DNA of 64,000 bases from an uncultured bacterium (GTDB lineage: Bacteria; Bacillota; Clostridia; Lachnospirales; Lachnospiraceae), in contig CANSLJ010000013.1 in NCBI GenBank assembly GCA_947647735.1, forward strand, positions 41,272-105,271. The letters run 5' to 3'. Made by a program: the position numbers and the translations under genes. A model generated the notes under the pieces. The model saw nothing but the letters and a program-made list of their open reading frames with translations, was not told the DNA's origin and did not search any database. Below, piece by piece: positions 1-20,565 of this stretch (positions are counted from its first letter, which is position 1; each line of letters starts with the position of its first letter).

Positions 1-756
1 GATAATTGTTCTGCAGATATTATTCTCTCGGAAGAGTATGGTTATCTATATAAGTGTGAGGACTATCTTGTTGAACTTACAGATTTCGATTTTTCAGTTT
101 TTTTGGATGAGATGGTTCCGGAAAGTCACAAGTTTACTCCAGAATTGAAAAATGGAGGCTGCATTATTATCAATAAGAGCGTGCTGGAAAGCAAGGGGGC
201 GCCGATTCCAACTTGCTATGAGGATTTGTTAGATCCTGTTTATAAAGATCTGATCTCGATGCCGAATCCTGCCTCGTCTGGTACAGGGTATATGTTTCTG
301 CGTCAGCTTACCAATGAGTGGGGAGAGGACGAGGCGTTTGCATATTTTGATCAGCTGTCCGAAAATGTTCTTCAGTATACCTCATCCGGTTCGGGACCGG
401 TGAATGCGCTTATTCAGGGAGAAGTCGGGATCGGCTTGGGTATGACTTCGCAGGCGGTTGTGGAGATCAACCAGGGCGTAGATTTGGATATTGTGTTTTT
501 TGAGGAGGGTGCACCCTACAGTGTGTATGGAAATGCGGTGCTTGCAAACAGTGCGGATCGCGAATGTGTGATGGAGGTATTCAACTATTTATCAACAGAT
601 CTTTGCAAAGGTAATAATGAGAAATTTTTCCCAGAGCAGATATTTAAGGATTTTATTCCTGAGGCAAAAGGTTTTCCAACGGGCGTTCAGTATGGTGATA
701 TGTCAAATGATACTGTCAGTGAGAAAGAGAGGCTGCTTGGAAAATGGATACATTAA
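1..756 (+). CDS. ABC transporter substrate-binding protein, FbpA-type (5' truncated)
   Basis: The reading frame is open from base 1, so the gene begins upstream of the window and its N-terminus and signal peptide are missing. The visible 251 residues look like the C-terminal two thirds of a type 2 periplasmic-binding fold of the iron(III)/2-aminoethylphosphonate/spermidine-like class: a segment NPASSGTGYMFL, then AYFDQLSENV and a GEVGIGLGMT stretch are typical of FbpA-like proteins. The protein would be a membrane-tethered extracellular receptor that hands substrate to the permease encoded two genes downstream. The ATPase gene overlaps its 3' end by 13 bases, which supports one operon. The substrate cannot be decided from sequence. 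The gene has no evident link to the glycan cluster. Confidence 0.8.
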   Translation, partial: DNCSADIILSEEYGYLYKCEDYLVELTDFDFSVFLDEMVPESHKFTPELKNGGCIIINKSVLESKGAPIPTCYEDLLDPVYKDLISMPNPASSGTGYMFLRQLTNEWGEDEAFAYFDQLSENVLQYTSSGSGPVNALIQGEVGIGLGMTSQAVVEINQGVDLDIVFFEEGAPYSVYGNAVLANSADRECVMEVFNYLSTDLCKGNNEKFFPEQIFKDFIPEAKGFPTGVQYGDMSNDTVSEKERLLGKWIH

Positions 757-1523
757 ATAAGCTGGATATCATCGGAGTGTCAAAGGGATATCAGAAGAAT
801 GATGTACTCAAAGAAATCAGCTTTGAAGTAAAAAACGGGGAATTTCTTTCTATTCTCGGACCGTCTGGTTGCGGGAAGACAACCCTTCTGAGAATTTTGA
901 TTGGACTTTTGGAATTGGATACGGGACGTATTTTGAAAGATGGGGTTGATATTACTCATACATCTGCAGACCAGAGAGGAATGGGTATAGTTTTTCAGAA
1001 TTATGCTTTGTTTGAAAATATGACTGTCTTTAAAAATGTGGAATATGCACTAAAATTTCACAAAGAAACGAAGGGCAATGCAAAAGCGATAGCAGAGGAG
1101 ATGATAGAGATAGTCGGGTTGAAAGACCATATGCAAAAAAAGCCTGGTGACCTTTCCGGAGGGCAGCAACAGAGGGTAGCCATTGCGAGAACGCTGGCGT
1201 TAAAGCCGGATATCATATTGTTGGATGAGCCGATGTCTGCGCTGGATGTTGCAACACGGCTGACAATGCGAGATGAATTGAAAAAATTGCAGGTATCTTT
1301 TGGGACGACGATGATCTATGTAACACATGATCAGGAGGAAGCGTTTGCGCTTTCTGACAGAGTGATGATTATGGATCAGGGAGAGATAAGCCAGCTTGCA
1401 ACACCAGAAGAAATCTGTTCTCATCCTGCGAATGATTATGTTCAGACATTTGTGTTAGATAATTTACAGGAAAAGGTTGATTCGTTGGCAAAGTTTGTTT
1501 ATAGAAAGAACAGAGAGTCATGA
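744..1523 (+). CDS. ABC transporter ATPase (PotA/FbpC-like)
   Basis: A 259-residue nucleotide-binding subunit that powers import of the substrate bound by the upstream receptor. All ABC motifs are present: Walker A GPSGCGKTT at residues 39-47, Q-loop Gln85, signature LSGGQ at 137-141, Walker B ILLDEP at 158-163 and H-loop His195. The C-terminal TOBE regulatory domain common in PotA/FbpC is missing, since only about 45 residues follow the nucleotide-binding fold, so the protein is at the short end of its family. It overlaps the binding-protein gene by 13 bases and the permease gene by 4 bases (ATGA), indicating translational coupling. Substrate class (iron(III), phosphonate or polyamine) is unresolved. 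Confidence 0.9.
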   Translation: MDTLNKLDIIGVSKGYQKNDVLKEISFEVKNGEFLSILGPSGCGKTTLLRILIGLLELDTGRILKDGVDITHTSADQRGMGIVFQNYALFENMTVFKNVEYALKFHKETKGNAKAIAEEMIEIVGLKDHMQKKPGDLSGGQQQRVAIARTLALKPDIILLDEPMSALDVATRLTMRDELKKLQVSFGTTMIYVTHDQEEAFALSDRVMIMDQGEISQLATPEEICSHPANDYVQTFVLDNLQEKVDSLAKFVYRKNRES

Positions 1524-3100
1524 GAAGAAAAAATAAGACTAGGATTATTGTTCATGTATTGATTACAGTGTTTTTTGCTGTCAGTGTGATAGCTCCCATC
1601 TTATCCATGTTGCGGCGGATTACGCCGGATGGATTCAGGGCGGTGATTTACTCTGCCCAGTTTGGGGAAGCTGTTGTGAATTCGTTGACAACGGCATTGA
1701 CGGCGACCATTATATCATTGATACTGGCACTGCTTGCCGCCTTCTGCATAGAGCGTACTTCCCTGAAAGGTAAAGTTATTTTTAATATGTTTTTTGTAAT
1801 TCCTATGCTAATTCCGTCTATTTCCCATGCATTTGGGCTTGTGGCGTTGTTTGGAGCAAACGGGCTGCTTACCCGATTTCTGGGGATAGATGGTGGCATA
1901 TATGGCTTTTGGGGAATTGTTGCCGGTTCAGTGATGTACTCTTTTCCGGTGGCATTTCTTATGTTTAAGAGTATTCTTCAATATGAGGACGGTATGGCCT
2001 ATAGGGCGGCGGGAATTCTTGGAATTCCAGCATTTTGGCAGTTCACTGGCATTACGTTTCCTTATCTGAAAAAAACAATGATTTCCGCTTTTTTTGCTAT
2101 TTTTACAATGATCATTACAGACTATGGTGTTCCGCTCATGATTGGCGGCAAGATAATAACATTGTCAACATTGATGTATAGTAAAGCGGTGGCAATGCTG
2201 GATTATGATGCTGGAAGTGTGATTGGAGCATTTTTGCTTATTCCGGCGGTCATTGCATTTCTGGTAGATATGATGAATTCGGAGAGTGCACACAGCGGAT
2301 TTGTCAACGAGCAGGTTGAGGAGAAAAAGGGGGAGGGAGTCCGGCTGTTGGCTGCTGTTTTGTGCATTTTGCTTTCAGCCTGCATTTTGCTGCCTATACT
2401 GTCTTTTTGTATTATGGTTTTTGAGACAAAATATCCCGTGGACATGACATTCACGCTTCACCATATTGAAAAGACGATGAACCGAGGGGCGGGAAAATAT
2501 CTCCTGAACTCTGTGATGTATTCTGCTCTGGCAGCATGCATGGGTACCGGGCTGGCGTTTTTATGTGCTTATCTGACTGCAAGAATAAATGGAGTGTTCA
2601 GTAGAGGGCTTCACCTGATCTCTGTGACATCCATGGCGATACCAGGTATCGTGCTTGGTCTATCTTATGTGATTTTTTTTAGCAAAATGCCGATTTACGG
2701 TACAATTCTGATTATCGTTCTCGCCAATTCTATTCATTTTTTCGCATCACCGTATTTGATGATGTACAATACATTGGGAAAGGTGAACATGAATTTGGAG
2801 GCGGTAGGAAAAACACTGGGAATAAAAAAGGTACACATTGTTGTAGATGTGATTGTTCCAAAGGTAAAATATACATTGTATGAGATGTTCGCATATTTTT
2901 TCGTAAATTCAATGATGACGATTTCGGCGGTATCTTTTTTGGCACCTCCTTCACCAAAGCCGATAGCATTGATGATCAATCAATTTGAGGCGCAGCTGCT
3001 GATGGAAAGCGCGGCGTTTGTATCGCTGCTGATCTTGCTTATTAATTTTATATTGAAAGGCTTTATAGCTGTAATTAAGTTTAGGGCAATGAAAAAATAG
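1520..3100 (+). CDS. ABC transporter double permease (FbpB/ThiP-like)
   Basis: A 526-residue polytopic membrane protein with two binding-protein-dependent permease domains in one chain, as in FbpB, ThiP and 2-aminoethylphosphonate permeases. About 12 hydrophobic segments are visible, with a polar break near residues 255-275 (EQVEEKKGEG) separating the halves. Each half carries an EAA-type loop: YRAAGILGIPAFWQF in the first half and EAVGKTLGIKKVHIV in the second; these dock on the ATPase. The start codon overlaps the stop of the ATPase gene (ATGA), completing a three-gene importer operon. It is followed by about 65 bases before the glycan genes begin, so this is probably the left boundary of the polysaccharide locus. 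Confidence 0.9.
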   Translation: MRRKNKTRIIVHVLITVFFAVSVIAPILSMLRRITPDGFRAVIYSAQFGEAVVNSLTTALTATIISLILALLAAFCIERTSLKGKVIFNMFFVIPMLIPSISHAFGLVALFGANGLLTRFLGIDGGIYGFWGIVAGSVMYSFPVAFLMFKSILQYEDGMAYRAAGILGIPAFWQFTGITFPYLKKTMISAFFAIFTMIITDYGVPLMIGGKIITLSTLMYSKAVAMLDYDAGSVIGAFLLIPAVIAFLVDMMNSESAHSGFVNEQVEEKKGEGVRLLAAVLCILLSACILLPILSFCIMVFETKYPVDMTFTLHHIEKTMNRGAGKYLLNSVMYSALAACMGTGLAFLCAYLTARINGVFSRGLHLISVTSMAIPGIVLGLSYVIFFSKMPIYGTILIIVLANSIHFFASPYLMMYNTLGKVNMNLEAVGKTLGIKKVHIVVDVIVPKVKYTLYEMFAYFFVNSMMTISAVSFLAPPSPKPIALMINQFEAQLLMESAAFVSLLILLINFILKGFIAVIKFRAMKK

Positions 3101-3165
3101 TTGCGGTTTTTCTGTAATGATTATAGAATATATGTGGCAAAGTCAGAACAAAAGAGGTGTCAATA

Positions 3166-4410
3166 ATGAATATATTACTATATATCGATCCAGGAACCGG
3201 AAGTATGCTCTTTGCGATACTGATTGGAATTATCGGGACATTAAACTATCTGTTGAAGAATGGACTTGTAAAATTGCGCTTTATATTGAGCAGCGGGAAA
3301 AAGGTGGAGACCAATACGGATAAACTGCCGTTTGTGATTTTTTCAGATGATAAAAGGTATTGGAATATATTTGAACCGATCTGTAGAGAGCTTGATAAAA
3401 GAGGGGTGGATGTGGTCTATATGACAGCATCTCCGGATGATCCGGCTATTCAAAATGCTTATGAACATATAAAGGGAGAATTTATAGGGAAAGGTAACAA
3501 AGCTTTTGCTAGAATGAATTTTTTGAATGCCGGGATTGTGTTTTCTACAACACCGGGGCTTGATGTGTATCAGTGGAAACGTTCTAAGGATGTTCAATAT
3601 TATATACACATACAGCATGGAGCAAATGATATTACTGGTTATCATATGTTTGGGGTAGATTATTATGATGCGATAATGCTGTCAGGAGAATATCAGGTAC
3701 AGGAAGTAAGGGAACTTGAAAAACTTCGGGGGCTTCCGGAGAAGGATTTGGTGAAGGTAGGAATTCCCTATATGGACGAGATGGCAAATAGATTACAGAT
3801 GACGCCAAAGAAAGATACAGAGGGGCGTACAGTACTGCTTGCACCATCTTGGGGCAAGAGCTCGATTTTTCAAAAATACGGGGGTAGGATTATAGAGGTA
3901 CTTTTAAAAACAGGGTACCATATTATTGTTCGCCCGCATCCCCAATCATTTGTTTCTGAAAAAGAGACAATGGAAAAGATTATGCAAGAGTACCCGGCAT
4001 CGGACCAGCTTGAATGGAATCAGGATAATGATAATTTTGAGGTGTTAAAACGGACTGATATTTTAGTATCGGATTTTTCTGGAATCATTTTTGACTTTTC
4101 TCTTGTATATGACAAACCTGTCATATATGCTGATACAGACTTTGATACTAGTCCTTATGATGCTTGGTGGTTAGATATGCCGTATTGGACATTGACAGCA
4201 TTGCCACGAGTAGGCCAGAAACTGACGATGGATAATCTGGACAGGCTGAAAGAAATGATAGATGAATGTATTCAAAACCCCAAATATGCACAAGGACGTC
4301 GAGAAGTAAGGGAGGAGACTTGGGAACATAAAGGAGAGGGCGCAAAGCGGGCTGTAGATTACCTGTTGAATAAATATAAAGAATTGACCGAGACGGAGGA
4401 GGTAAAATAG
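3166..4410 (+). CDS. CDP-glycerol glycerophosphotransferase family protein (TagF-like)
   Basis: A 414-residue member of the CDP-glycerol:poly(glycerophosphate) glycerophosphotransferase family, which moves glycerol- or ribitol-phosphate from a CDP donor onto a lipid-linked acceptor at the inner membrane face. A hydrophobic N-terminus (about residues 3-30, containing YIDPGTGS) suggests membrane attachment. Family motifs are the IQHG segment near 149-152, RPHP near 256-259 and VSDFSGIIFDF near 301-311. I chose the ATG at 3166 rather than the in-frame GTG at 3157, because AGAGG at 3153-3157 would overlap that GTG but sits correctly for 3166. The next gene follows after one base. The link to a teichoic-acid-like or phosphoglycerol-decorated glycan is inferred from the family. 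Whether it polymerises or adds single units is unknown. Confidence 0.82.
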   Translation: MNILLYIDPGTGSMLFAILIGIIGTLNYLLKNGLVKLRFILSSGKKVETNTDKLPFVIFSDDKRYWNIFEPICRELDKRGVDVVYMTASPDDPAIQNAYEHIKGEFIGKGNKAFARMNFLNAGIVFSTTPGLDVYQWKRSKDVQYYIHIQHGANDITGYHMFGVDYYDAIMLSGEYQVQEVRELEKLRGLPEKDLVKVGIPYMDEMANRLQMTPKKDTEGRTVLLAPSWGKSSIFQKYGGRIIEVLLKTGYHIIVRPHPQSFVSEKETMEKIMQEYPASDQLEWNQDNDNFEVLKRTDILVSDFSGIIFDFSLVYDKPVIYADTDFDTSPYDAWWLDMPYWTLTALPRVGQKLTMDNLDRLKEMIDECIQNPKYAQGRREVREETWEHKGEGAKRAVDYLLNKYKELTETEEVK

Positions 4411-4411
4411 A

Positions 4412-7174
4412 ATGTCTTTTGGAGAGATTTTAGATGCGTTATTACTGAAACCGTTGCAGTTGATATTTGAAGTGGTTTATGTCATGGCAGACAATGTGAT
4501 CGACAATCCGGGGCTATCGATTATTGTGTTGAGTCTGTTCATGAACTTTTTGGTTCTTCCGTTATATATGCGTGCAGATGCGATACAGGAAGAAGAGCAT
4601 GCGATAGAGAAGAAACTTCAAAAAGGCGTGGATCATATAAAAAGGACGTTCAGCGGCGATGAGCGGATGATGATATTGCAGACTTATTACAGGCAGAATC
4701 ATTATAAACCTGTATATGTTCTGCGTAGTGCAGTTTCGTTATTTTTGCAGATTCCGTTTTTTATTGCTGCCTATCGTTTTCTTTCCGGCTTGCAGCTTTT
4801 AAACGGGGTATCTTTCGGGCCGATTGCGAATCTTGGCAGTCCAGATGGGATGTTGGTATTTAGTGGAATTTCTATCAATTTATTGCCAGTTATTATGACG
4901 GCGGTAAATTTGGTGTCCTGCGTAGTATTTACGAAAGGTAGTCCATTGAAGTCAAAAATACAATTGTATGCCATGGCGCTCTTTTTTTTGGTGTTTTTGT
5001 ATAGTTCTCCGTCAGGACTTGTTTTTTATTGGACGTTAAACAATGTATTTTCCCTTATAAAAACTATTTTTTATAAATTAAAAAATCCAAGAAAAGTACT
5101 AAATGCGATTTCTTCTGGCGTAGGAGTGTTGGTAGCAATTTATGGATTTTTCTTTTATCAAACACCTACTCTAAGAAAAATGGTGTTTTTTGCATGTGCT
5201 GGAATATTATTACAGTTTCCAATTGTATATGAAGTGGTGAGGAGAAAAATAAAATGGAAAAGGAGGCAGGGGGGAGAAAATAAGAAATTGTTTTTGGCTG
5301 GGGCATTGTTTCTGGCTGTTTTAACAGGGGCGGTAATTCCTTCTGCGGTAATTAAGGCATCACCGCAGGAATTTATAGATGTTACACTTTTTTATAATCC
5401 CTTATGGTTTATTGTACATTCTTTTTGCCGGGCAATAGGAACATTTGTAATTTGGACAGGGGTATTTTATTTTTTGGCAAGACCTTCTGTGAGAGTATAT
5501 TTTGACAAAGGTGTATGGCTCATCTCCGGAGTGTTTGCGGCGGATTATATGTTTTTTGGAAAGGAATTGGGGCTTCTTACAAACCAATTAAAATATGAGG
5601 ATAAACTGGAATTTGCATTAAAAGAACAGCTAAAGAATGTTGTGGTAGTTATAGCAGTATTGATACTGTTTTATCTGATTTATCAATATTGGAACAAATT
5701 GGCATCGGAAATACTGGTGATAGGGGTATTAGCTCTTTCTTGTATGACGATTCTTAACATAACAAATATTAATACTTCTGTGAACAGAGTGAAAGAGAGG
5801 GATCTGGAAAAATATATGACGACCCCTCAATTTACCTTAAGTAAAAGTGGGAAAAATGTAATAGTATTAATGCTGGATCGAGCAATAGGCGAATATATTC
5901 CTTATCTATTTCAGGAAAAACCGGAGTTGGAAGCACAATTTTCAGGTTTTACTTACTATGCGAATGCAGTATCTTTTGGGCTATATACTAATTTGGGGAC
6001 GGCACCGCTTTTTGGCGGTTATGAATATACTCCGGTCGAAATGAATAAAAGAGATGAAGAATTATTGGTCGATAAACAGAATGAGGCATTGAAAGTCATG
6101 CCGGTATTATTTGATCAGAATGATTATCAAGTGATGGTCTGTGATCCGCCATATGCAGGATACCAGTGGATTCCGGATTTATCAATTTATGATGAATATC
6201 CGGGGATTGAGAGTTACATATTAAAAAATAAATTTACAGATGATTCAATCAAAGGGCAATGGATGCAGGAAGATAAGAGAAATTTTTTCTGTTATGGTAT
6301 TTTAAAGGCTGCACCACTTTGTTTTCAGAAGACAATATATGATTACGGAAGGTATAATCAGGCAAATAATGATGTCGAGACGATAGATACAAAACAGGTG
6401 AGGCCGGATATGTACACTTCGGTTGGAGTGAGTAATACTTTTATGGATAGGTATAACGCTTTATGCGCTCTACCGGATATGACGGACGCTGTAGATGAGA
6501 ATGTTAATACATTTTTAATGATGGTAAATGAGACGACTCATGAACCGATGCTGTTGCAGGAACCAGACTATGTACCGGCAATGGAAGTGGATAATACAGA
6601 GTATGAAAGAGACCATCAGGACAGGTATACTATAAATGGTCATACATTGAGAATGACAACAGATGTGCATGCTATTTATTACCAGTCAACCATGGCAACA
6701 ATGCTTAAGTTGGGCGATTGGTTTGACTATATGCGGGAAAATGGTATTTATGATAATACAAGAATTATTCTGGTATCGGATCATGGTAGGAGCAGTTTGT
6801 ATGAAGGGGATGAAGCGAGACTAGGGGAGACAGATATATCATCATTTTATCCTTTGTTGATGGTGAAAGATTTTGATAGTAAAGAATTTGTGACATCAGA
6901 AGAATTTATGACAAATGGAGATGTGCCGACACTTGCGATGAAAGACATCATAGAAGACCCAGTTAATCCGTTTACCGGGAAAGCGATAAATTCTGATGAG
7001 AAAACGGCGCATAAACAGTATGTCAGTTCTTCATGGGAATGGGATATAGAAATTAATAATGGGACAACTTATCTCCCTTCTAAATGGTACTCGGTGCACG
7101 ATGATATGCGTGAAGTGGATAATTGGGAATTGATATCTGAGGAAGAGGTGATACTTCCTCCCATGGAAGAGTAA
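4412..7174 (+). CDS. YidC/Oxa1-like domain fused to alkaline-phosphatase/sulfatase-like domain (paralog 1)
   Basis: A 920-residue protein with an unusual architecture. Residues about 1-230 look like a YidC/Oxa1 insertase core: GLSIIVLSLF, a conserved groove-type Arg (R54 in PLYMRAD), a charged cytoplasmic hairpin, LQIPFFIAAYRF, and GLVFYWTLNNVFS. Residues about 230-470 are several more membrane segments. Residues about 480-860 resemble the alkaline-phosphatase superfamily (LtaS/sulfatase-like): metal-ligand Asp489 in VLMLD, candidate nucleophile Thr526 or Thr530 in YTNLGTAPLFGG, a TTHEP segment, and Asp790/His791 in VSDHG. It starts one base after the TagF-like gene, and a close paralog lies at 8158-10902. 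Inference: an outer-face phospho- (for example phosphoglycerol-) transferase or hydrolase acting on a glycan, with the YidC-like half as membrane platform. Substrate unknown. Confidence 0.78.
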   Translation: MSFGEILDALLLKPLQLIFEVVYVMADNVIDNPGLSIIVLSLFMNFLVLPLYMRADAIQEEEHAIEKKLQKGVDHIKRTFSGDERMMILQTYYRQNHYKPVYVLRSAVSLFLQIPFFIAAYRFLSGLQLLNGVSFGPIANLGSPDGMLVFSGISINLLPVIMTAVNLVSCVVFTKGSPLKSKIQLYAMALFFLVFLYSSPSGLVFYWTLNNVFSLIKTIFYKLKNPRKVLNAISSGVGVLVAIYGFFFYQTPTLRKMVFFACAGILLQFPIVYEVVRRKIKWKRRQGGENKKLFLAGALFLAVLTGAVIPSAVIKASPQEFIDVTLFYNPLWFIVHSFCRAIGTFVIWTGVFYFLARPSVRVYFDKGVWLISGVFAADYMFFGKELGLLTNQLKYEDKLEFALKEQLKNVVVVIAVLILFYLIYQYWNKLASEILVIGVLALSCMTILNITNINTSVNRVKERDLEKYMTTPQFTLSKSGKNVIVLMLDRAIGEYIPYLFQEKPELEAQFSGFTYYANAVSFGLYTNLGTAPLFGGYEYTPVEMNKRDEELLVDKQNEALKVMPVLFDQNDYQVMVCDPPYAGYQWIPDLSIYDEYPGIESYILKNKFTDDSIKGQWMQEDKRNFFCYGILKAAPLCFQKTIYDYGRYNQANNDVETIDTKQVRPDMYTSVGVSNTFMDRYNALCALPDMTDAVDENVNTFLMMVNETTHEPMLLQEPDYVPAMEVDNTEYERDHQDRYTINGHTLRMTTDVHAIYYQSTMATMLKLGDWFDYMRENGIYDNTRIILVSDHGRSSLYEGDEARLGETDISSFYPLLMVKDFDSKEFVTSEEFMTNGDVPTLAMKDIIEDPVNPFTGKAINSDEKTAHKQYVSSSWEWDIEINNGTTYLPSKWYSVHDDMREVDNWELISEEEVILPPMEE

Positions 7175-7265: not shown

Positions 7266-8132
7266 ATGAAGAAAATTATGATAACTGGTTGCAATGGACA
7301 ATTAGGTAGGGCATTGAATCAATTGTACGAAAAAGAATCTAATATTACGATCATTAATACAGATGTATTTCAGGGAGAGGGTATTAAGTCGCTGGATATT
7401 ACAGATGTAAACGCAGTGGTTTCTTTCGTTAGAGAAATTAAGCCAGATGCTATTATTAATTGTGCAGCACATACCAATGTAGATAAATGTGAGACAGATA
7501 TAGATAATGCCTATAAAATTAATGCTATAGGTCCGCGAAATTTGAGTATAGCGGCAACGGAAACAGGGGCAAGGTTGATGCATGTTTCTACGGATTATGT
7601 TTTCCAAGGGACAGAAGATAGAGCATTGACGGAGTTTGATGCGGTAGGGCCGACCAGCATGTACGGAAAGACAAAGTTGGCGGGAGAAAATTTTGTGCGT
7701 GATTTCGGAGATAAGTATTTTATTGTAAGAACGGCATGGCTTTACGGGGATGGTAAGAACTTTGTGAAGACGATGCTAAGGTTGGCGGAGACGCATATGG
7801 AAGTAGGTGTTGTAAAGGATCAATATGGAACGCCCACTAGTGCGCTGGAACTGGCTAAGGCGATCAAGTATTTGCTGCCAACAGAAAATTATGGGCTGTT
7901 TCATGGAACCTGTGAGGGGAGCTGCAGCTGGGCTGACTTTGCATCAGAAATTTTTTGGCTGGCAGGAAAAAATACAAAAGTAAATTACATTACGACAGAG
8001 GAATTTGGTTCGTTAACGAGGCGCCCTGCCTATTCTATATTGGATAATTATATGCTTAGGCTGACTACAGACTTTGCTTTTGCGCCTTGGCAGGATGCGA
8101 TTGCAGAGTATATGAAAACAGTAAGTGTCTGA
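7266..8132 (+). CDS. rfbD: dTDP-4-dehydrorhamnose reductase (RmlD-like)
   Basis: A 288-residue short-chain dehydrogenase/reductase of the RmlD family, which reduces dTDP-4-keto-L-rhamnose to dTDP-L-rhamnose with NAD(P)H in the cytoplasm. The nucleotide-binding motif TGCNGQLGRAL is at residues 7-17, STDYVFQG lies in mid-chain, and the catalytic Tyr-Lys pair is in MYGKTKLAGE. The length is normal for the family. The other three dTDP-rhamnose genes (rmlA, rmlB, rmlC) are not in this window, so they must lie elsewhere if the pathway is complete. The gene sits between the two YidC-AlkP fusion paralogs. RBS GGAG at 7252-7255. The 91-base gap upstream shares short sequence blocks with the gap before the fucokinase gene. 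Confidence 0.9.
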   Translation: MKKIMITGCNGQLGRALNQLYEKESNITIINTDVFQGEGIKSLDITDVNAVVSFVREIKPDAIINCAAHTNVDKCETDIDNAYKINAIGPRNLSIAATETGARLMHVSTDYVFQGTEDRALTEFDAVGPTSMYGKTKLAGENFVRDFGDKYFIVRTAWLYGDGKNFVKTMLRLAETHMEVGVVKDQYGTPTSALELAKAIKYLLPTENYGLFHGTCEGSCSWADFASEIFWLAGKNTKVNYITTEEFGSLTRRPAYSILDNYMLRLTTDFAFAPWQDAIAEYMKTVSV

Positions 8133-8157: not shown

Positions 8158-10902
8158 ATGTCTTTTTTTGAGATATTAGATGCATTATTACTAAAACCGC
8201 TATATTTGCTGTTTGAAATAGTCTATGTGGTGGCAAACAGAGTAGTGGGTAATGCGGGATTATCAATCATTATATTGAGTCTGTTTATGAATTTTCTGGT
8301 ACTTCCGCTCTATATGCGAGCAGATGCAGTACAGGAAGAAGAGCATGCTGTGGAAAAAAAACTCCAAAAAGGAGTGGATCATATTAAAAAGACATTCAGT
8401 GGTGATGAGCGAATGATGCTGCTGCAGACGTATTACAGGCAGAATAACTATAAGCCGGCATATGTCTTGCGCGGTGCAGTTTCGCTGTTTTTGCAGATAC
8501 CATTTTTTATTGCTGCATATCGGTTCCTTTCTGGCTTGCAGATGTTAAATGGTGTTGCATTTGGACCGATCACGGATCTCGGAAAACAGGATGGAATGTT
8601 AGTTGTTGGCGAAATATCCATCAATGTATTGCCGATTATCATGACTGTTGTGAATATTGTGTCCTGCGTGATTTTTACAAAGGGAAGTCCTCTGAAATCG
8701 AAAGTACAGTTGTATGTGATGGCATTATTCTTTCTAGTGTTTTTATACACCTCTCCGGCAGGCCTTGTCTTTTATTGGACATTGAATAATATGTTTTCGT
8801 TGGTGAAGACGATCTTCTATAAATTGAAGAATCCAAGGAAAGTATTGGGAGGGATTTTTTCAGCAACGGGGCTTCTGTTGATAATTTATGGTTTCTTTTT
8901 TTGCCATGCAGTCACGGCGAAGAGGATGGTATTCTTTGCGGTGATGGGGTTATTGATGCAGATACCGTTGGTTTATTATGTATTTAGCGGACATATAAAA
9001 TGGCGAGTGAGGTCTGAGAACTCAAATGCTAGGATGTTCTGGGGGAGCGGAGTTTTTTTGACCGTTTTGTTGGGAGCTGTGATACCATCTACTGTTATAA
9101 AATCATCTCCATTAGAGTTTGTAGATATTACTTATTTTTATCATCCACTGTGGTTTGTTGTCAGTTCTTTTTGCATGGCGTTAGGAATATTTGTAATTTG
9201 GGCAGGCATCTTTTATTTTTTTGCAAAACCTACGATAAGAGAATACTTTGATATAGCAATGTGGGTATTTTCTGGCATTGCAATAGTGAATTATATGTTC
9301 TTTGGTAAGGATCTGGGGATATTAAGTCCTCAGTTAAAATATGAGAAGGACTTAAATTTGATAGGGACAGATCAGATCTGGAATATGATTGTAGTAATAA
9401 TCGTTATGGTGGTGCTTTATATTGTTTATAAGAGATGGGAAAAATTGTCTACAGAGGTGATGCTTACCGGTGTGCTGGCATTATGTTGTATGGCGTCGGT
9501 TAATATTATTGGAATCAATACTTCTGTAAAAAGTATTAAAGAACAGGTAACAGAAGAAATTCCAAGACTTACATTGAGCAAAACAGGTAAAAATGTGATC
9601 GTGTTTATGCTCGACAGGGCCATGGGAGAATATGTTCCTTATTTCATTCAAGAAAAACCAGAATTAAAGGAGATGTTCTCAGGATTTACATATTATCCCA
9701 ATACGATATCTTTTGGGTCTAATACTAATATAGCAACACCAGCTCTTTTTGGGGGATATGAATATACTCCGGTGGAGATAGATAAAAGAAGCGAAGAATC
9801 TTTGGAATCTAAGCAGAATGAAGCGTTAAGGGTAATGCCAGTGCTGTTTGATCAAAATGGATATAAAGTAGTTGTTTGCGATCCGCCGTATGCAGGCTAC
9901 CAGTGGATACCGGATTTGACTATTTATGATGAATATCCTGATATAGAAAGTTATATAACAAACGGGAAGTTTACAGAACTGTCTGCAAGGAAATCGAAAA
10001 TAGAAAATAACAATAGAAATTTTATCTGTTACAGTATGTTTAAGACAGCGCCTCTCTGCGTGCAAGAAATTATATATGACAGGGGACAGTATAATCAGAC
10101 GAGCACAGTAGAGGAAGTGGATTATTCAGGACAGATGATACCTGATCTGTTCAGTGCGACCGGATTAGATGCAGAATTTATGCAGGCATATAATGTATTG
10201 GAAAATCTTCCATATATTACGGAGATAGTGGGAGATAATAAAAATAATTTTCTAATGCTTGAAAATGATACAACACATAAAATCATGATGCTTCAGGAGC
10301 CAGAGTATGTTCCCCAAATGATAGTTAATAATGTGGAGTATGAGAATTGTTCCAGGGATAGATTTGTCCTTGATGGCCGTGAGCTGAAAATGGACGATTA
10401 TTTGCAGGTGACTCATTATCAGATAAATATGGCATCTCTATTGCGCTTAGGAGAGTGGTTTGACTATATGCGGGCGAATGATGTTTATGATAATACAAGA
10501 ATTATTCTGGTAGCTGATCATGGTTATAGTTTGGAACATTGGGAAGATTTCTATTTGGAAGATGGTGAGGACATATCAGCTTATTACCCGTTGCTTATGG
10601 TAAAAGACTTTGACTGTAAAGAATTTGAAATATCCGAAGAGTTTATGACAAATGGAGATGTGCCGACACTCGCAATAAAGGATATTATAGAAGAACCGAT
10701 TAATCCCTTCACAGGGAGAAAGATAGATGCTAGTGAAAAAACGGCACATAAGCAATATGTTTTTTCTTCAGATGAGTGGATGATAGATATTAATAACGGA
10801 AATACGTTTATTCCAGGAGATTGGTTTGCTGTGCATAATGATATGCGAGATCCAAATAACTGGAAATTGGTGACGGAAGATGCAATACTTCCAGCATATT
10901 AG
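8158..10902 (+). CDS. YidC/Oxa1-like domain fused to alkaline-phosphatase/sulfatase-like domain (paralog 2)
   Basis: A 914-residue paralog of the 4412-7174 product, alike from end to end by eye. The YidC-like N-terminal core is very close (GLSIIILSLFMNF, PLYMRADAVQEEEHA, LQIPFFIAAYRF, GLVFYWTLNNMFS). The catalytic half retains VFMLDRAMGEY, the Thr-bearing TNIATPALFGGYEY, a NDTTHK segment and VADHG. Differences concentrate in the middle membrane region and in the loop just after the DHG motif (GYSLEHWED here, GRSSLYEGD in the other), so the two enzymes may use different acceptors. The start is the ATG just after the run GGAGAAAAGGA at 8147-8157. It follows rfbD by 25 bases. Function is inferred as for the paralog: an outer-face phosphotransferase or hydrolase linked to glycan modification. 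Confidence 0.78.
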   Translation: MSFFEILDALLLKPLYLLFEIVYVVANRVVGNAGLSIIILSLFMNFLVLPLYMRADAVQEEEHAVEKKLQKGVDHIKKTFSGDERMMLLQTYYRQNNYKPAYVLRGAVSLFLQIPFFIAAYRFLSGLQMLNGVAFGPITDLGKQDGMLVVGEISINVLPIIMTVVNIVSCVIFTKGSPLKSKVQLYVMALFFLVFLYTSPAGLVFYWTLNNMFSLVKTIFYKLKNPRKVLGGIFSATGLLLIIYGFFFCHAVTAKRMVFFAVMGLLMQIPLVYYVFSGHIKWRVRSENSNARMFWGSGVFLTVLLGAVIPSTVIKSSPLEFVDITYFYHPLWFVVSSFCMALGIFVIWAGIFYFFAKPTIREYFDIAMWVFSGIAIVNYMFFGKDLGILSPQLKYEKDLNLIGTDQIWNMIVVIIVMVVLYIVYKRWEKLSTEVMLTGVLALCCMASVNIIGINTSVKSIKEQVTEEIPRLTLSKTGKNVIVFMLDRAMGEYVPYFIQEKPELKEMFSGFTYYPNTISFGSNTNIATPALFGGYEYTPVEIDKRSEESLESKQNEALRVMPVLFDQNGYKVVVCDPPYAGYQWIPDLTIYDEYPDIESYITNGKFTELSARKSKIENNNRNFICYSMFKTAPLCVQEIIYDRGQYNQTSTVEEVDYSGQMIPDLFSATGLDAEFMQAYNVLENLPYITEIVGDNKNNFLMLENDTTHKIMMLQEPEYVPQMIVNNVEYENCSRDRFVLDGRELKMDDYLQVTHYQINMASLLRLGEWFDYMRANDVYDNTRIILVADHGYSLEHWEDFYLEDGEDISAYYPLLMVKDFDCKEFEISEEFMTNGDVPTLAIKDIIEEPINPFTGRKIDASEKTAHKQYVFSSDEWMIDINNGNTFIPGDWFAVHNDMRDPNNWKLVTEDAILPAY

Positions 10903-10979
10903 GGGTGATTTATAAATTATAGAAAAGTTATACCATATATGATGGAACATAGAGTGTGAAGACAGAAATGGAGAGTCGC

Positions 10980-13900
10980 ATGAACGTAAGTTACAGTAAA
11001 ATAAAACCCTTATTTTTGCAACAAAGCTATATCGATGCTTGGGAAGACTACAGGAGAGCACTCCGAAAGCGTTCTTTTCCTTGCTGGGATGTGATTGTAC
11101 TGACGGCGTCCAACGAAGATCAGGCAGCGGCCTATCGGAAGGAAATTGAATACAGGCTGCAAAACAGTCTTTTGCCGGGAAAAACGAAATATGTGGTGCT
11201 TTCCGATCCAGATGGAAAACGGGTGGGTTCCGGAGGAGCTACACTAAATGTATTAAAATATCTGGCGGAGGCAGAGGGCGGCAGAGATGCGTTTCGTAAG
11301 AAAATACTGGTAATCCATTCCGGTGGGGATTCGAAGAGAGTGCCCCAATACAGTGTCTGTGGAAAGTTGTTTTCACCGGTGCCGAGGGAGTTGCCTAATG
11401 GCAGGGCGTCCACTCTGTTTGATGAGTTTATGGTTGCAACAGCAGGGATTCCGGCAAGGATGCAGAGTGGTATGTTGGTGATGTCCGGTGATGTGTTGTT
11501 GTTATTTAATGTGCTTCAGATTGACTTGCAGTATCAGGGGGCGGCGGCGATTTCCATTAAGGAACCTGTTTCAATCGGGAAAGAGCATGGCGTGTTTTTG
11601 AATGATGGACGGGGCATGGTAAAGCGATTTCTGCATAAACAGTCGGAAGAGCAGCTACAGGCTCTGGGAGCTGTGAATGAACAGGGTATGGTAGATTTGG
11701 ATACCGGTGCAGTAATGTTGGACACAGAATTGCTTCTCGCCTTGTTTTCTCTGATTGCTGTGAAAGATAAAGTGGAGGATAAAAAGTTCGAGACGTTTGT
11801 CAATGAACGGGCAAGAATCAGCTTTTATGGCGACTTTTTATATCCGCTGGCGAAGGACGCCACATTGGAAGAATATTATCTGGAAGCGCCGGAGGGCAGC
11901 TTTTGTGAGGAGTTAGAGAGCTGCAGGAGAAAAATCTGGGAAGTGCTTCATACATTTCAGATGAAGGTGATCTGTCTCTCTCCGGCGGAGTTTATTCATT
12001 TTGGAACGACCAGAGAATTGTTGAAACTGGTGACCAGAGAGGTGGAGAATTATGAATTCCTAAATTGGAAAAAACAAGTTTGTACAAACAGGATAGAACA
12101 AAGGCATTATGCCGCACATAATAGTTTGATTTCTAAAAAGGCTGATATCGGGGAAGGGTGCTATATAGAGGATTGTGATATTGGAAGTCAGGTCTGTGTG
12201 GGGGAGGACAGTGTTTTATCGGGGCTTTGTCTGGAAAAAGGACAGATTCCTTCTGAGGTGGTGTTGCATGCTCTGAGGTTAAAGGATGGCAGATATACAG
12301 TCAGAATTTATGGCATAGAGGATAATCCGAAGGGAACGCTTGAGCAGAATACGACGTTTATATACGGAAGACTTAGGGATATGCTTTCCTATTATGGAAT
12401 TTTGCCAGAACAGATCTGGGGTGGGCAGGAGCCCTATCTTTGGTTTGCAAAGCTTTATCCTGTTTGTGACAGCATGGAGGAAGCGGTGCAGGCTTCCTTG
12501 CAACTTGTAAAGATATCAGAACAGAAGGAGCCTTCTCCAGCGGTGGCAAATTGGCTCTCCATGGAACGGATCAGCCTTTATGAATCTTTTGTGCAGGCGG
12601 ACGTGAGAGCGATTTTGCCCTGGAAGACCAGATTGGAGGATTTAGTGCTGGCTGCCCGCTTTATAGAAAAACTGGAGCAGGGAGTTTCTTATGATGAGGC
12701 TTTGCAGGTATTTGGACAGGTGGGGATTGACCAGGAAAAGTTTGACTTGTTGATGGAGAAGGCTGGCGGAAGTGAGCTTCTGCTAAAAATGAGGATATAT
12801 TATGCAATTTCCCGTTATATGCGAGAGGGAAATATTGTTTTTGCGGGAGATACCAGCTATGATGTATTGGAGCGGCTTTGTTTTGACTGCCTTGGGAAAG
12901 CTGTTTATGACAACAGCAGAAAGTATATTCAGGACAATAAAAATTATCGGCTTCAGAAAGAGCATGTGGCAGTACAACTTCCGGTCAGGGTGAACTGGGG
13001 AGGCGGCTGGACGGATACACCACCATATTGTAATGAAAATGGCGGCGTGGTACTGAATGCCGCCCTGAAATTAAATGGGATTTTGCCGATTCAAGTGGAA
13101 GTGCGGAGACTGGAAACATTACAGGTGGAATTTGCCAGTGAGGATATCGGCGTAAAAGGTGTCTGCAAGACGGTGGAGGAGATAAGAGATTGCCATAATC
13201 CGTTCGATTTTTTTGCGCTTCATAAGGCGGCACTGATTTCCTGTGGCATTGTGCCTTTAGCAGGGACAGAAACTTTGCAGGAAATCCTGCGAAGGCTGGG
13301 CGGCGGTATCTATTTATCCACGAAGGTGGTGGGAGTTCCCAAGGGTTCCGGATTAGGGACGAGCAGTATTCTATCTGGAGCTTGTGTGAAAGCTCTGCAT
13401 GAATTTTTAGGGCTTTCTTGCAGCGATGGAGCACTTTATGATATCGTGCTCTGTATGGAGCAAATGATGAGTACAGGCGGTGGCTGGCAGGATCAGGTAG
13501 GCGGCCTGACAAATGGCATTAAATATATTACTACAAAATCCGGTATCGATCAGAAGATTCAAGTGGAGCAGGTTGTTGTGCCGGAAAAAGCAAAAAAGGA
13601 ATTGCAGGAGCGGTTCGTGCTAATCTATACTGGACAGAGAAGACTTGCGAGAAACTTGTTGCGAGAAGTGGTAGGTAATTATATCGGTGGACGAAAAGAG
13701 TCAGTGGATGCTCTTTCGGCCATGAAGGTGACAGCAGTTAGAATGCGCTGGGCATTGGAAGAGGGAAATATAGACGAACTGGCAAGGCTCTTTAATGAGC
13801 ATTGGGCGCTGTCCAAACAATTGGATATGGGGGCTACCAACACCTGTATTGACCAGATATTCTTATCCTGTGAGGACTTGATTGATGGACGGTTTATCGC

Positions 13901-14030
13901 AGGAGCTGGCGGCGGCGGCTTTTTACAGGCCATATTAAAAAAGGGTGTGACAAAACGGCAGCTCTCAGATCGGCTTCATGAGGTATTTCAGGATAATGGG
14001 GTGGATGTCTGGGAGAGTGAGTTTGTGTAA
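10980..14030 (+). CDS. fkp: bifunctional L-fucokinase / L-fucose-1-phosphate guanylyltransferase (Fkp-like)
   Basis: A 1016-residue two-domain enzyme for the salvage route L-fucose to fucose-1-phosphate to GDP-L-fucose. The N-terminal half is a nucleotidyltransferase-like fold with the diagnostic GSGGATLNVL motif near residues 83-92, followed by a stretch around residues 380-420 that looks like a left-handed beta-helix (IGEGCYIEDCDIG). The C-terminal about 350 residues are a GHMP kinase: NWGGGWTDTPP near 670, PKGSGLGTSSILSGA near 786 and AGAGGGGF near 973. The size fits Bacteroides Fkp (949) and plant FKGP (about 1055). I prefer the ATG at 10980 with GGAG at 10970-10973 over the GTG at 10956. 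The product can feed the GT10 enzyme at 54072. Specificity for a fucose-like sugar other than L-fucose cannot be excluded. Confidence 0.88.
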   Translation: MNVSYSKIKPLFLQQSYIDAWEDYRRALRKRSFPCWDVIVLTASNEDQAAAYRKEIEYRLQNSLLPGKTKYVVLSDPDGKRVGSGGATLNVLKYLAEAEGGRDAFRKKILVIHSGGDSKRVPQYSVCGKLFSPVPRELPNGRASTLFDEFMVATAGIPARMQSGMLVMSGDVLLLFNVLQIDLQYQGAAAISIKEPVSIGKEHGVFLNDGRGMVKRFLHKQSEEQLQALGAVNEQGMVDLDTGAVMLDTELLLALFSLIAVKDKVEDKKFETFVNERARISFYGDFLYPLAKDATLEEYYLEAPEGSFCEELESCRRKIWEVLHTFQMKVICLSPAEFIHFGTTRELLKLVTREVENYEFLNWKKQVCTNRIEQRHYAAHNSLISKKADIGEGCYIEDCDIGSQVCVGEDSVLSGLCLEKGQIPSEVVLHALRLKDGRYTVRIYGIEDNPKGTLEQNTTFIYGRLRDMLSYYGILPEQIWGGQEPYLWFAKLYPVCDSMEEAVQASLQLVKISEQKEPSPAVANWLSMERISLYESFVQADVRAILPWKTRLEDLVLAARFIEKLEQGVSYDEALQVFGQVGIDQEKFDLLMEKAGGSELLLKMRIYYAISRYMREGNIVFAGDTSYDVLERLCFDCLGKAVYDNSRKYIQDNKNYRLQKEHVAVQLPVRVNWGGGWTDTPPYCNENGGVVLNAALKLNGILPIQVEVRRLETLQVEFASEDIGVKGVCKTVEEIRDCHNPFDFFALHKAALISCGIVPLAGTETLQEILRRLGGGIYLSTKVVGVPKGSGLGTSSILSGACVKALHEFLGLSCSDGALYDIVLCMEQMMSTGGGWQDQVGGLTNGIKYITTKSGIDQKIQVEQVVVPEKAKKELQERFVLIYTGQRRLARNLLREVVGNYIGGRKESVDALSAMKVTAVRMRWALEEGNIDELARLFNEHWALSKQLDMGATNTCIDQIFLSCEDLIDGRFIAGAGGGGFLQAILKKGVTKRQLSDRLHEVFQDNGVDVWESEFV

Positions 14031-18425: not shown

Positions 18426-20075
18426 CTATAGACCTAAAAAATAGGTATCCAAAAAGGCCATACGTTCCCTGACAAACTGTGTAGTCTCTGTCAGGTCAGT
18501 AGAATTTCCACTGTCAGGACAGATGGCGGTATCTCTGGCAAGGGCTCCGCTCTCTACTAAAAGATTCATGTTCTCTTCCATAATGGAAATAATATGGTCA
18601 TCGGATAAGATACCCGCTCTGTAGTTTAGGTATCGCGCAACCAGAAGGTCATGAGCACCATTGATGTTTTCGTCAAAAAGTTGCTGAATACAAGATTCTG
18701 CATAAATAATGGTAGGATCGTTATTGAATTCAACATAAAGTTTTTCTGGTTCTTGAGCCCAGACTTCACCGAAGGTATAGTTTAAGTCCCAGGGCAGAAT
18801 GTAGGTAATATATCTGCCATCAGGCTGACGACGGGACACCATATATGTGTTCTTGGATTGATTGTCGGCAGCGGAGGTGGCCTGTATGAAAATATAGAAA
18901 TCAGCAATATTTCTTAAGTCTAACAGACTGGCATAGGCATAAGCATTGGGTGTCCAGTAGGCATAGGTCAGGTATTCCTGCAAAGGCATCCAACCGGCAA
19001 GGGTTTTTTCGGGTTCCTTGGGGTAACGCAGCCGCACAGGGTATGCCACCGTAAAATTATTATCAAGAGAGTACTGGAAACTGCTGGGGGAGGGATTCCC
19101 GAATTCAACAAGTTTGTAAAGGGAGTCTCCATCCTTTAGGTGGAGAGTATCTTCGTCGATGGGGGAAAGGACACCACATAATCCATTATATCTGCCGTCC
19201 AAAATAACCTCACAGTAGGTCATTTCGGCACTGTATTCCATAAAATCAGCTTCGGATGCTTTTGCGATTTCATTCCAGAGCGTGAGGGATGTTATATCCC
19301 TGATCTTGCTGCTATCGTTAAACATGGTGATCAGTTTCCATTTTGCGTTTACCCCTATGTCAAAAAGATATTGTTCGTTTTTAGTACCATCGGCTTCTAA
19401 TAGTTTGATGGAATAGTTTTTCTTTCTGCCATAGGAGGTAGAGCTGGCACCACGCTCATGAAAAGTAACCGGACTAAATACAGTCTGGTATTTTTTTGTT
19501 TTCGGATTTGCGTTGAAGATGACAATAGCGCCATAATATCTTGTCTGGGATTCAAAATAATATCCGTCGGGTTCCAGATCAGGATCGTAAATGGGCTCTT
19601 CGGCGTAGGCGGAAGTCATACTGATCAAAGGAAGCCCTGTGATAACAAGAGACAAAGGCTGAGAGGCATCTCCAATTCTGGCACAAAGCGTAAAAGTATG
19701 TCCGCTGCTGATAGCGGTAGATTTATCGAAAAGAAGCGGATCTTCCAAAAAATAAAGTTCCCCTTCGGGGGTGCTGAGAGAAAGCGCGCCTTGCCAGTCA
19801 TCGATGTTCATATTCTGGGATAGATAATAGGTTTGAGTGTCTCCAACATAGGGGAGTGGGTAACCGTTAAAAAGTAGGGTAATACCCTGTGACTGAAACA
19901 GATCAGCTTTTGGAGGAGCAGAGATGAATAATGCTTCAGCCTCCTGGGAGGATATAATGTCTGTGGATAGAATTTTTTTTGATTCAATATAATGGAAATA
20001 AAACAAGACAATCAAAAAAACGATTGTCAACGGAAGGAAAAGATGCTTTGATAATAGTTTGGCTCGGTCAGACAT
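18426..20075 (-). CDS. CotH kinase family protein, membrane-anchored
   Basis: A 549-residue CotH-family protein. CotH proteins are atypical kinases that phosphorylate spore-coat proteins in Bacillus, but related secreted versions exist in many bacteria. One N-terminal hydrophobic segment (about residues 13-29) suggests a membrane anchor with the rest outside the membrane. Family features are HERGASSTSYGRKKNYSIKL, NDSSKIRDITSLTLWNEI, a YCEVILDGRYNGLCG segment, ADNQSKNTYMV, and LPWDLNYTFG with the catalytic-type Asp near residue 430. RBS AGGAG (complement of 20081-20085) and a TATAAT box (complement of 20105-20110) lie upstream. It is on the strand opposite to the glycan genes, next to an orphan Spo0A-type regulator. 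A role in the spore surface is inferred, not shown. Confidence 0.85.
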   Translation of the reverse strand: MSDRAKLLSKHLFLPLTIVFLIVLFYFHYIESKKILSTDIISSQEAEALFISAPPKADLFQSQGITLLFNGYPLPYVGDTQTYYLSQNMNIDDWQGALSLSTPEGELYFLEDPLLFDKSTAISSGHTFTLCARIGDASQPLSLVITGLPLISMTSAYAEEPIYDPDLEPDGYYFESQTRYYGAIVIFNANPKTKKYQTVFSPVTFHERGASSTSYGRKKNYSIKLLEADGTKNEQYLFDIGVNAKWKLITMFNDSSKIRDITSLTLWNEIAKASEADFMEYSAEMTYCEVILDGRYNGLCGVLSPIDEDTLHLKDGDSLYKLVEFGNPSPSSFQYSLDNNFTVAYPVRLRYPKEPEKTLAGWMPLQEYLTYAYWTPNAYAYASLLDLRNIADFYIFIQATSAADNQSKNTYMVSRRQPDGRYITYILPWDLNYTFGEVWAQEPEKLYVEFNNDPTIIYAESCIQQLFDENINGAHDLLVARYLNYRAGILSDDHIISIMEENMNLLVESGALARDTAICPDSGNSTDLTETTQFVRERMAFLDTYFLGL

Positions 20076-20187: not shown

Positions 20188-20565
20188 TTATAAATCTCTC
20201 AGATCAAGTCTTATTTTGTCAGCAATTCTTGCAATATATTCACTGTTGGTGGGGCGGCCCTTGCCTGTCCCTACAGAGTAGCCGAATAGTTCCTCGAAAG
20301 TATCGATATTACCTCTTGTCCAAGATACCTCAATAGCATTCCGGATGGCGCGTTCTACTTTCTGGTCGGTGGTTTTAAATCTTTTAGCGACTGTTGGATA
20401 TAAGAGTTTGGTGACGCTGCTGACAGCCTCCATATCCTTCCCGGAGAGGATGATAGCCTCCCTTAAGTAATGATACCCTTTTAGGTGTGCTGGAATACCC
20501 ATATCCAGCATGATTCTGGTAACATAGCGTTCCAGATCAACCTCATTCATGTTTGCGATATCCAT
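20188..20565 (-). CDS. orphan Spo0A C-terminal DNA-binding domain protein
   Basis: A 125-residue protein that is entirely a Spo0A C-terminal (effector) domain, the DNA-binding part of the master sporulation regulator. It matches the known fold closely by eye: HLKGYHYLREAI, SVTKLLYPTVAKRF, the recognition-helix region DQKVERAIRNAIEVSWTRGNID, and RPTNSEYIARIADKIRLD. There is no receiver domain, and an in-frame TGA six bases upstream of the ATG, with RBS AGGGGA on the - strand, shows that the short form is genuine. Without a receiver it should bind DNA independently of phosphorelay input, or compete with Spo0A at 0A boxes. It probably regulates cotH, the divergent glycan operon, or both (inference). 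Confidence 0.92.
   Translation of the reverse strand: MDIANMNEVDLERYVTRIMLDMGIPAHLKGYHYLREAIILSGKDMEAVSSVTKLLYPTVAKRFKTTDQKVERAIRNAIEVSWTRGNIDTFEELFGYSVGTGKGRPTNSEYIARIADKIRLDLRDL

Follow-up and report, generated by a model that had tools for sequence, protein, structure and literature searches.

Several bacterial enzymes of the alkaline phosphatase (ALP) superfamily, including EptA/MCR, LtaS/LtaP, PbgA (YejM) and PptA, join a membrane part to an outer catalytic domain with an Asp/Glu-Thr-Asp-His set and draw on bulk phospholipids; EptA and LtaS spend phospholipid headgroups. We know of no enzyme of these families that carries a YidC domain. Here we describe such a protein in a 64,000-nucleotide stretch of contig CANSLJ010000013.1 (the window), from an uncultured member of the Lachnospiraceae, where the open reading frame (ORF) at 4412–7174 of the + strand encodes a 920-amino-acid (aa) fusion of a YidC/Oxa1-family domain (Y) with a PbgA/EptA/LtaS-type unit (S), next to the gene for a TagF-like transferase (T). 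Every part belongs to a known fold family, and the joining of a YidC domain to such enzymes is a variant of known headgroup-tailoring systems. The reading we favour, with moderate confidence, is that the fusion forms the outer-face half of a machine moving a phosphorus-containing headgroup, activated by cytidine diphosphate (CDP) or monophosphate (CMP), from the cytosol to a surface polymer.

Among the described supply pathways for activated headgroups, LicC makes CDP-choline and PntC makes CMP-2-aminoethylphosphonate (CMP-AEP), the step after CMP-AEP being left open in the relevant passages of PMC6697681. According to passages of PMC10434233, the Lic-1 pathway ends in LicD, for which CDP-choline is the direct donor to glycans; PptA modifies pilin with phosphocholine from an unknown donor, proposed to be phosphatidylcholine; phosphatidylglycerol and phosphatidylethanolamine headgroups serve in like reactions; and no evidence so far places Lic-1 and PptA in the same species. 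A preprint (PMC10491306) describes lipid scrambling by YidC and further Oxa1 proteins, both in vitro and in simulation, with no physiological role shown. The accessible portion of a paper on GlcNAc phosphodiesterases of Clostridia (PMC10704324) does not treat the proteins described here, and among the papers listed in searches of an open-access library no title or abstract opening was about a YidC domain joined to an ALP- or TagF-type enzyme.

The original prediction, made from the letters of the window, placed YidC and ALP domains on one chain starting one base past a TagF-like gene. Both points are borne out: profile and fold evidence support the two domains within the ORF, and the TagF-like ORF ends at 4410. 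A second copy of the fusion, overlooked at first, lies at 8158–10902 (+; 914 aa, 64% identical to copy 1). The gene between the copies encodes RmlD (dTDP-4-dehydrorhamnose reductase; 7266–8132, +; TIGR01214 over cut-off), which belongs to the surface-polysaccharide context and is not a core part. The fusion is not an assembly artefact, since, by our own count, 16 of the 299 genomes sampled from the family (298 genera) share the architecture; the raw search tallies for these genomes also include ordinary YidC, ALP-only and fragment matches, and a short fragment in G081 was excluded. Its distribution is patchy, with 3 of 348 phylum-wide genomes matched at E 1e-60 or better, two of them being the genome of the window and another of its family.

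Linkage to a TagF-like gene, anticipated in the original prediction, proved close to exclusive within the family. Fifteen of the 16 fusion genomes, and none of the other 283, encode a homologue of the TagF-like protein at 49% identity or more (Fisher p 2e-24, the genomes not being independent). In the sixteenth genome (G215), where no homologue was found, the fusion sits at a contig end. Fusion and TagF-like gene are direct neighbours in 13 genomes; in G052 another gene separates them, and in G004 they are not linked. A wider contig search listed 595 candidate stretches, of which at least 587 encode a relative of the query, a full fusion not being implied for all. Eighty named loci were kept, with record titles naming Lachnospiraceae, Oscillospiraceae, Clostridium punense, Schwartzia, Solobacterium, Butyrivibrio and others; the match covers at least residues 44–836 in 79 of them and residues 1–707 in L116, which ends with its contig. 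A TagF gene was labelled in 69 of the 80; in 67 of the 78 fusion-labelled loci it directly neighbours the fusion on the same strand, mostly at a spacing of –4 to +5 bases. The two loci without a fusion label (L146 and L147) are probably masked by a longer ORF on the opposite strand.

The TagF-like protein of the window (3157–4410, +; 417 aa) consists of a transmembrane (TM) element with the motif YIDPGTGSML (D) followed by the transferase domain, which is predicted to be cytosolic. This N-terminal element, recognised by YIDPGTG, is present in all 66 labelled TagF proteins that reach their start, the other 3 of the 69 being truncated by contig ends. Like the TagF/TarL CDP-glycerol(-ribitol) transferases, T is a member of PF04464 (E 3e-12; 46.6 bits against a cut-off of 22.1), and the best Foldseek match of the predicted D-T model is TagF (3l7k, an entry with CDPG; E 1.6e-12). 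Unlike them, T carries the YIDP element or, as described below, a whole YidC domain; it scores far under the cut-offs of the TagF/TarF/TarL equivalogs (TarL, 15.5 against 1000; TarF, 13.4 against 550); and its neighbours point to choline- or AEP-type headgroups. One D-T homologue (L041:10535-12700) lies in a 721-aa frame, about 300 aa above the usual length, with the extra part C-terminal.

Searches with T also returned 18 distant matches (23–34% identity), all within long frames and spread over 15 genomes; G022, among these, also has a Y-S fusion. In all 18 the TagF domain shares its chain with a YidC domain (Y-T), and in the three proteins scanned both PF02096 and PF04464 are over cut-off. 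Ten of the 18 Y-T loci contain a YidC-free ALP gene within the fetched stretch. The YIDP element occurs as a separate small ORF in 11 stretches and forms part of the ALP chain in one (L175). The small membrane proteins in question are ORFs of 64–137 aa with a TM segment of the form YIDPS..TY.IQA.AG (L165:6361-6642, L168:8695-8961, L171:6681-6875 and others); of the two scanned, neither reached the cut-off of a Pfam family or matched NCBIfam. The layouts seen are therefore D-T with Y-S, Y-T with D and S, and Y-T with D-S. Because modules of one set are fused in these different ways, the sequences provide strong evidence that Y, T, S and D, which look like parts of one machine, work together, in both architectures with T predicted to be cytosolic and S outside. 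A phylum-wide search for Y-T, limited to the scoring of up to three candidates per genome, returned no match spanning both parts of a Y-T protein.

In a tree of YidC domains (22 Y-S, 16 Y-T and 38 ordinary), Y-S and Y-T form two clades, each with support of 100/100, and a single recruitment of YidC is rejected by the approximately unbiased (AU) test with p values of 0.0036, 0.0003 and 0.0096 for builds with 38, 19 and 9 ordinary YidCs. The separate clades and this rejection suggest that YidC was recruited twice, onto S and onto T. The AU tests are provisional, having been run after the tree was seen, with long branches and an unsettled bootstrap in the 38-ordinary build; the motif filter left out 20 of 30 ordinary YidCs in the 19-row build, and the 38-row build kept 29 of the 30.

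The Y domain occupies residues 1–221 of copy 1 (4412–5074, +). PF02096 (60KD_IMP) matches residues 34–221 with E 2.7e-21, at 76.7 and 82.2 bits for the two copies against a curated cut-off of 35. TIGR03592 (cut-off 84.3) gives 88.0 for copy 2 and 84.4 for copy 1 with neighbours, and 79.3 and 82.9, just under, by protein. The best PDB match of this part by profile is YidC (E ~2e-10), which agrees with the family originally proposed. In the structure search with the whole model Y is not among the 50 PDB rows, the list being filled by the ALP domain; its identity is profile-based. As in YidC/Oxa1 insertases, the model shows a YidC-like TM pattern and a cytosolic hairpin. Y differs from them in being fused to an enzyme, in coexisting with an ordinary YidC in the same genome, and in its groove residue.

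That residue is not the one first proposed. Arg54 had been called groove-type, and alignment rules it out: R366 of E. coli YidC and R72 of B. halodurans YidC2, which we take to be the groove arginines, fall on Asn45 (codon 4544–4546). Conservation was assessed in an alignment of 50 fusions, made of the two window copies and 48 of the 80 fetched loci; L102 (stop codon), L109, L118, L122, L128 and L140 (precaution) and 26 others by choice were left out, and two further alignments were built from 25 of the 50 rows. Asn45 is invariant (50/50), and Arg54 is a separate, nearly invariant residue (48/50). Among the domains of the YidC tree, all 22 of the Y-S type have Asn or Gln at the groove position and all 16 of the Y-T type have Lys; of the 31 ordinary YidC rows with a residue there, 30 have Lys or Arg (the other 7 of the 38 rows have none and are outside this count). 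A positive groove residue is absent from Y-S and is not universal among ordinary YidCs either. The ordinary YidC of the window's own genome has Tyr at this position, so the lost charge alone proves nothing, and the argument that it demonstrates a non-insertase role falls.

Y had also been proposed to serve as a membrane platform, and its conservation speaks against so limited a role. The mean share of the commonest residue over the 50 rows is 0.77 in the YidC core, 0.64 in the catalytic domain and 0.53 in the membrane part of S, and 15 polar or aromatic residues in the TM spans of Y are invariant. No other part of the chain is as conserved as this core, so Y is probably under selection for more than anchoring.

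The S unit begins with a membrane part (residues 290–470; 5279–5821, +) of about five TM helices, predicted from the model, the alignment to PbgA, hydropathy and loop charges. The model helices span residues 291–316, 331–355, 358–381, 403–426 and 428–469, of which 358–381 is weak by hydropathy. The catalytic domain that follows (residues 478–912; 5843–7147, +) has the ALP fold. When the full-chain model was compared with known structures, the whole S unit fitted the membrane-bound PbgA layout (6xlp, aligned over model residues 288–912; root-mean-square deviation 15), and a TM part and an outer catalytic domain are thereby predicted on one chain, as in LtaS, EptA and PptA. The best structural matches also include phosphonate monoester hydrolases and choline sulfatases, rows within 1 Z being tied. 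A scan of three separate ALP proteins against NCBIfam and Pfam named only 'Sulfatase', together with sub-cut-off matches.

The putative active site is strictly conserved. D489 (5876), T526 (5987), H710 (6539) and D790-H791 (6779–6784) do not vary in any of the 50 aligned fusions and are kept in all 14 aligned YidC-free ALP proteins of related genomes. Conservation accordingly favours the metal residues D489, D790 and H791 put forward in the original prediction, which had offered Thr526/530 as the threonine: T526 remains as the candidate nucleophile, and T530, present in 19 of 50 fusions, is ruled out. The fusion differs from EptA/MCR, LtaS/LtaP, PbgA and PptA in being tied to a TagF-like enzyme and often to a supply of CDP/CMP-headgroups.

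This supply is visible in the gene neighbourhoods. After the TagF gene, the commonest neighbours in the 80 named loci are a cytidylyltransferase/choline-kinase family (34/80), an EamA-type permease (18) and a generic ABC ATPase (13). Rarer clusters comprise an NCS1-type transporter (6), a nucleotidyltransferase-CobD-like fusion (5), LicD (4), AEP transaminase (3), phosphoenolpyruvate (PEP) mutase (2) and BCCT (2); one representative of each cluster was scanned and the others were named by eye. A CAAX-protease-like family found in 7 of the 80 loci was not used as supply evidence. Both architectures occur beside genes for PEP mutase, phosphonopyruvate decarboxylase and AEP transaminase, several of them over curated cut-offs, and supply-type matches reach E 1e-10 or better in 13 of the 18 Y-T loci. 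A LicC-type cytidylyltransferase is present in 13 of 16 fusion genomes and in 80 of the 283 others (p 3e-5, ancestry ignored). The loci share with the Lic (phosphocholine) and Pnt (AEP) pathways the supply logic of permease, kinase, LicC or PntC cytidylyltransferase and PEP mutase; Lic-1 ends in LicD, whereas the end station here is a TagF-like enzyme with YidC and ALP domains. The nucleotidyltransferase-CobD-like fusions, whose second part is of aminotransferase fold, lie near the machine at L166:5599-7422, L196:4384-6189 and L037:5269-7074 (the last scanned, the others assigned by similarity) and suggest a headgroup derived from serine or threonine phosphate, such as ethanolamine or aminopropanol phosphate. 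Of the cultured hosts, Schwartzia succinivorans carries labels for PEP mutase and AEP transaminase, and Butyrivibrio sp. MB2005 carries one for a cytidylyltransferase-CobD-like protein.

In the window itself, three genes upstream of D-T encode an importer: an AEP-type (PhnS2-like) substrate-binding lipoprotein whose 5′ end precedes the window (1–756, +; TIGR03261, E 6.5e-41 for the window part only), a PhnT2-like ABC ATPase (744–1523, +; best match TIGR03265, E 1.7e-93) and a PhnU2-like permease (1520–3100, +; best match TIGR03262, E 4.2e-96). Directly upstream of the window lies a gene for a 297-aa LicC/PntC-like cytidylyltransferase in which no kinase domain was found (L070:18630-19523). An open lipoprotein-type frame follows it immediately and runs into the window, and then come ATPase, permease, D-T and fusion. 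The cytidylyltransferase resembles both LicC and PntC; its PDB matches are LicC (1jyk, 3.3e-25) and then 6pd1 (1.4e-9; listed as a nucleotidyl transferase/aminotransferase), which we take to be T. denticola PntC. It is 78% identical to the cytidylyltransferase encoded in a PEP-mutase/AEP-transaminase/decarboxylase cluster of G613 and 33% identical to the cytidylyltransferase-kinase protein of a sister genome. On another contig (C11), the window's genome encodes PEP mutase and AEP transaminase over their cut-offs, with decarboxylase, cytidylyltransferase and LicD-like ORFs recognised by eye. Beside the LicD-like and PEP-mutase ORFs of this AEP locus is a 604-aa protein, sulfatase-like by eye and lacking obvious TM helices (L246:3211-5025).

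From these neighbours, our best guess for the headgroup of the window is AEP, because a phosphorus-bearing headgroup needs no kinase and the upstream cytidylyltransferase has no kinase domain. Glycerol phosphate is rejected for the window, whose neighbouring genes indicate AEP instead; L031 is the one locus where a TagD-like gene came to notice, with no systematic search made for one. AEP in the window, or a choline/ethanolamine-type headgroup in relatives, is more likely than glycerol.

The phosphodiester glycan modification with a TagF neighbour that the original prediction envisaged agrees with the fold, conservation, linkage and domain swapping described above. It needs amending: the headgroup is likelier to be of AEP, choline or ethanolamine type than glycerol, and the working unit appears larger than fusion and TagF, comprising the YidC domain, the TagF-like enzyme, the ALP enzyme, the YIDP element and often the supply of CDP/CMP-headgroups. 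In the mechanism we propose, AEP would be imported by the PhnSTU2-type transporter (window 1–3100), made from PEP by the PEP-mutase locus of the genome, or both, and the cytidylyltransferase just upstream would convert it to CMP-AEP. D-T (3157–4410) would place the AEP-phosphonyl group from CMP-AEP onto a membrane lipid, the headgroup of which would cross to the outer leaflet by way of the YidC-type groove of the fusion and be handed to the catalytic unit of the same chain. The ALP domain (putative metal site D489/T526/D790/H791, with H710) would load the headgroup on T526 and pass it on to an acceptor, a surface glycan or another. In relatives, this core may instead handle choline, ethanolamine/aminopropanol-type or other headgroups. 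A lipid relay of this kind would explain why T is paired with S, why Y is exchanged between them, why the groove of Y is constrained and why CDP/CMP-headgroups are synthesised near an ALP enzyme. That the YidC/Oxa1 domain was recruited at least twice, by the outer ALP enzyme and by the cytosolic TagF-like transferase, as a dedicated lipid-headgroup translocator coupling the two is a more tentative proposal, possible though short of probable.

Sequence and statistics establish the parts, their linkage, the domain swaps, the supply neighbours and the conserved catalytic set; the substrates of importer and cytidylyltransferase, the lipid intermediate, its movement by Y, and the chemistry and acceptor of the outer step are inferred. 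Several observations weigh against this interpretation. In G004 the TagF-like genes are not beside the fusions; 8 of the 18 Y-T loci have no ALP gene in the fetched stretch, and no YIDP element was found in 6 of the 18 stretches, some of which are truncated by contig ends. A supply gene of any kind was labelled in 40 of 78 loci, some of these stretches also ending with their contigs, and is therefore not a feature of every locus; the family-wide association with LicC-type genes is weaker than the pairing with TagF. PhnS2, PhnT2 and PhnU2 are the best family matches of the three importer proteins, all below curated cut-offs, and the AEP made from contig C11 may serve another target, given that this cluster has its own LicD-like ORF and cytidylyltransferase. 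LtaS-type enzymes carry a glutamate at the place of D489.

The chief alternative dispenses with a lipid relay: the TagF-like enzyme would put the headgroup directly on a cytosolic lipid-linked glycan, the ALP unit outside would act on the same polymer, drawing on an ordinary phospholipid donor or trimming the polymer, and Y would only anchor or assemble the complex. TagF-type enzymes do act on lipid-linked polymers. LicD-family genes are present in 4 of the 80 loci, and a LicD-like ORF, by eye, in the genome's AEP locus; the direct use of CDP-choline on glycans by LicD (passages of PMC10434233) supplies a precedent. Such decoration at two sites sits poorly with the near-perfect pairing of T and S, the exchange of Y between them and the two apparent YidC recruitments, which together argue that T and S share a membrane-crossing intermediate, and a Y more conserved than the catalytic domain would be odd for a mere anchor. 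We regard this alternative as unlikely, while giving it real weight.

Less probable again is that Y acts as a dedicated insertase or chaperone in cis, inserting or folding the membrane part of S or a partner. Insertion of proteins by YidC domains is established, and the positive groove residue is kept as Lys throughout Y-T; but there the domain sits on the TagF-like enzyme and not on S, and an ordinary YidC is available in the same genome. The Asn or Gln of Y-S, set against the Lys or Arg of nearly all ordinary YidCs, points the same way without being decisive, given the Tyr of the genome's own. Least probable, and in our judgement very much so, is that S is a phosphodiesterase or phosphonate-ester hydrolase that removes headgroups, scavenging together with the importer. 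The hydrolases and sulfatases among the top structural matches and the adjoining AEP-type importer are what such a role would lead one to expect, but the genes linked to it, for cytidylyltransferases, PEP mutase and a TagF-like transferase, are biosynthetic, the whole of S fits the PbgA layout, and the conserved candidate nucleophile is Thr. The nucleophile is Thr in LtaS and EptA transferases and Cys or Ser in sulfatases.

The favoured relay to a surface polymer calls for an acceptor, and much of the remaining window is, by eye, a surface-polysaccharide-type cluster that is plausibly the acceptor pathway. Directly after the second fusion, at 10956–14030, lies a 1024-aa protein resembling bifunctional fucokinase/GDP-fucose pyrophosphorylase (NF009948, 509 bits, below cut-off; PF07959 over cut-off), and fucose may be part of the acceptor polymer. 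The cluster also holds a CotH-kinase-family protein (18426–20075, –; PF08757, 1.8e-24) with an N-terminus hydrophobic by eye, and a 125-aa protein consisting only of the Spo0A C-terminal DNA-binding domain (20188–20565, –; PF08769, 1.9e-40), the same ORF start being found near the fusion of the sister genome G184 (L043:15240-15617).

Copy number and integrity vary among the relatives. A sheep-omasum Clostridiales genome has eight labelled fusion ORFs, probably seven copies, around one TagF-like gene (L149:3-20591), one of the ORFs being truncated at the contig end and one spread across two frames. G696 has five YidC matches in frames of 871–929 aa besides an ordinary YidC. Such expansion suggests different acceptors or headgroups. 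In a Faecousia sp. contig, a relative of the fusion has a stop codon within the matched stretch as read (L102:2175-4934).

If the proposal is correct, these bacteria would possess a machine in which an insertase-type fold acts on lipids, and it would provide the missing transfer step of AEP tailoring and of some phosphocholine tailoring; the lipid relay, if real, would make this a machine of a new kind. Nature has in effect run an experiment by exchanging Y between the inner and the outer enzyme, and the outcome indicates that it is the pathway, rather than either enzyme, that needs the YidC fold. T and S are candidate enzymes for the step left open in the passages of PMC6697681, from CMP-AEP of the Pnt pathway to the cell surface. 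Lic-type CDP-choline supply is here linked with an ALP-type transferase, where the corresponding passages of PMC10434233 saw no evidence for Lic-1 with PptA. The idea that lipids are moved by Oxa1-family proteins (PMC10491306) becomes testable in a dedicated system. Judging from the record titles, many Clostridia of gut and rumen carry the parts, and the surface zwitterions of these bacteria may face the host immune system.

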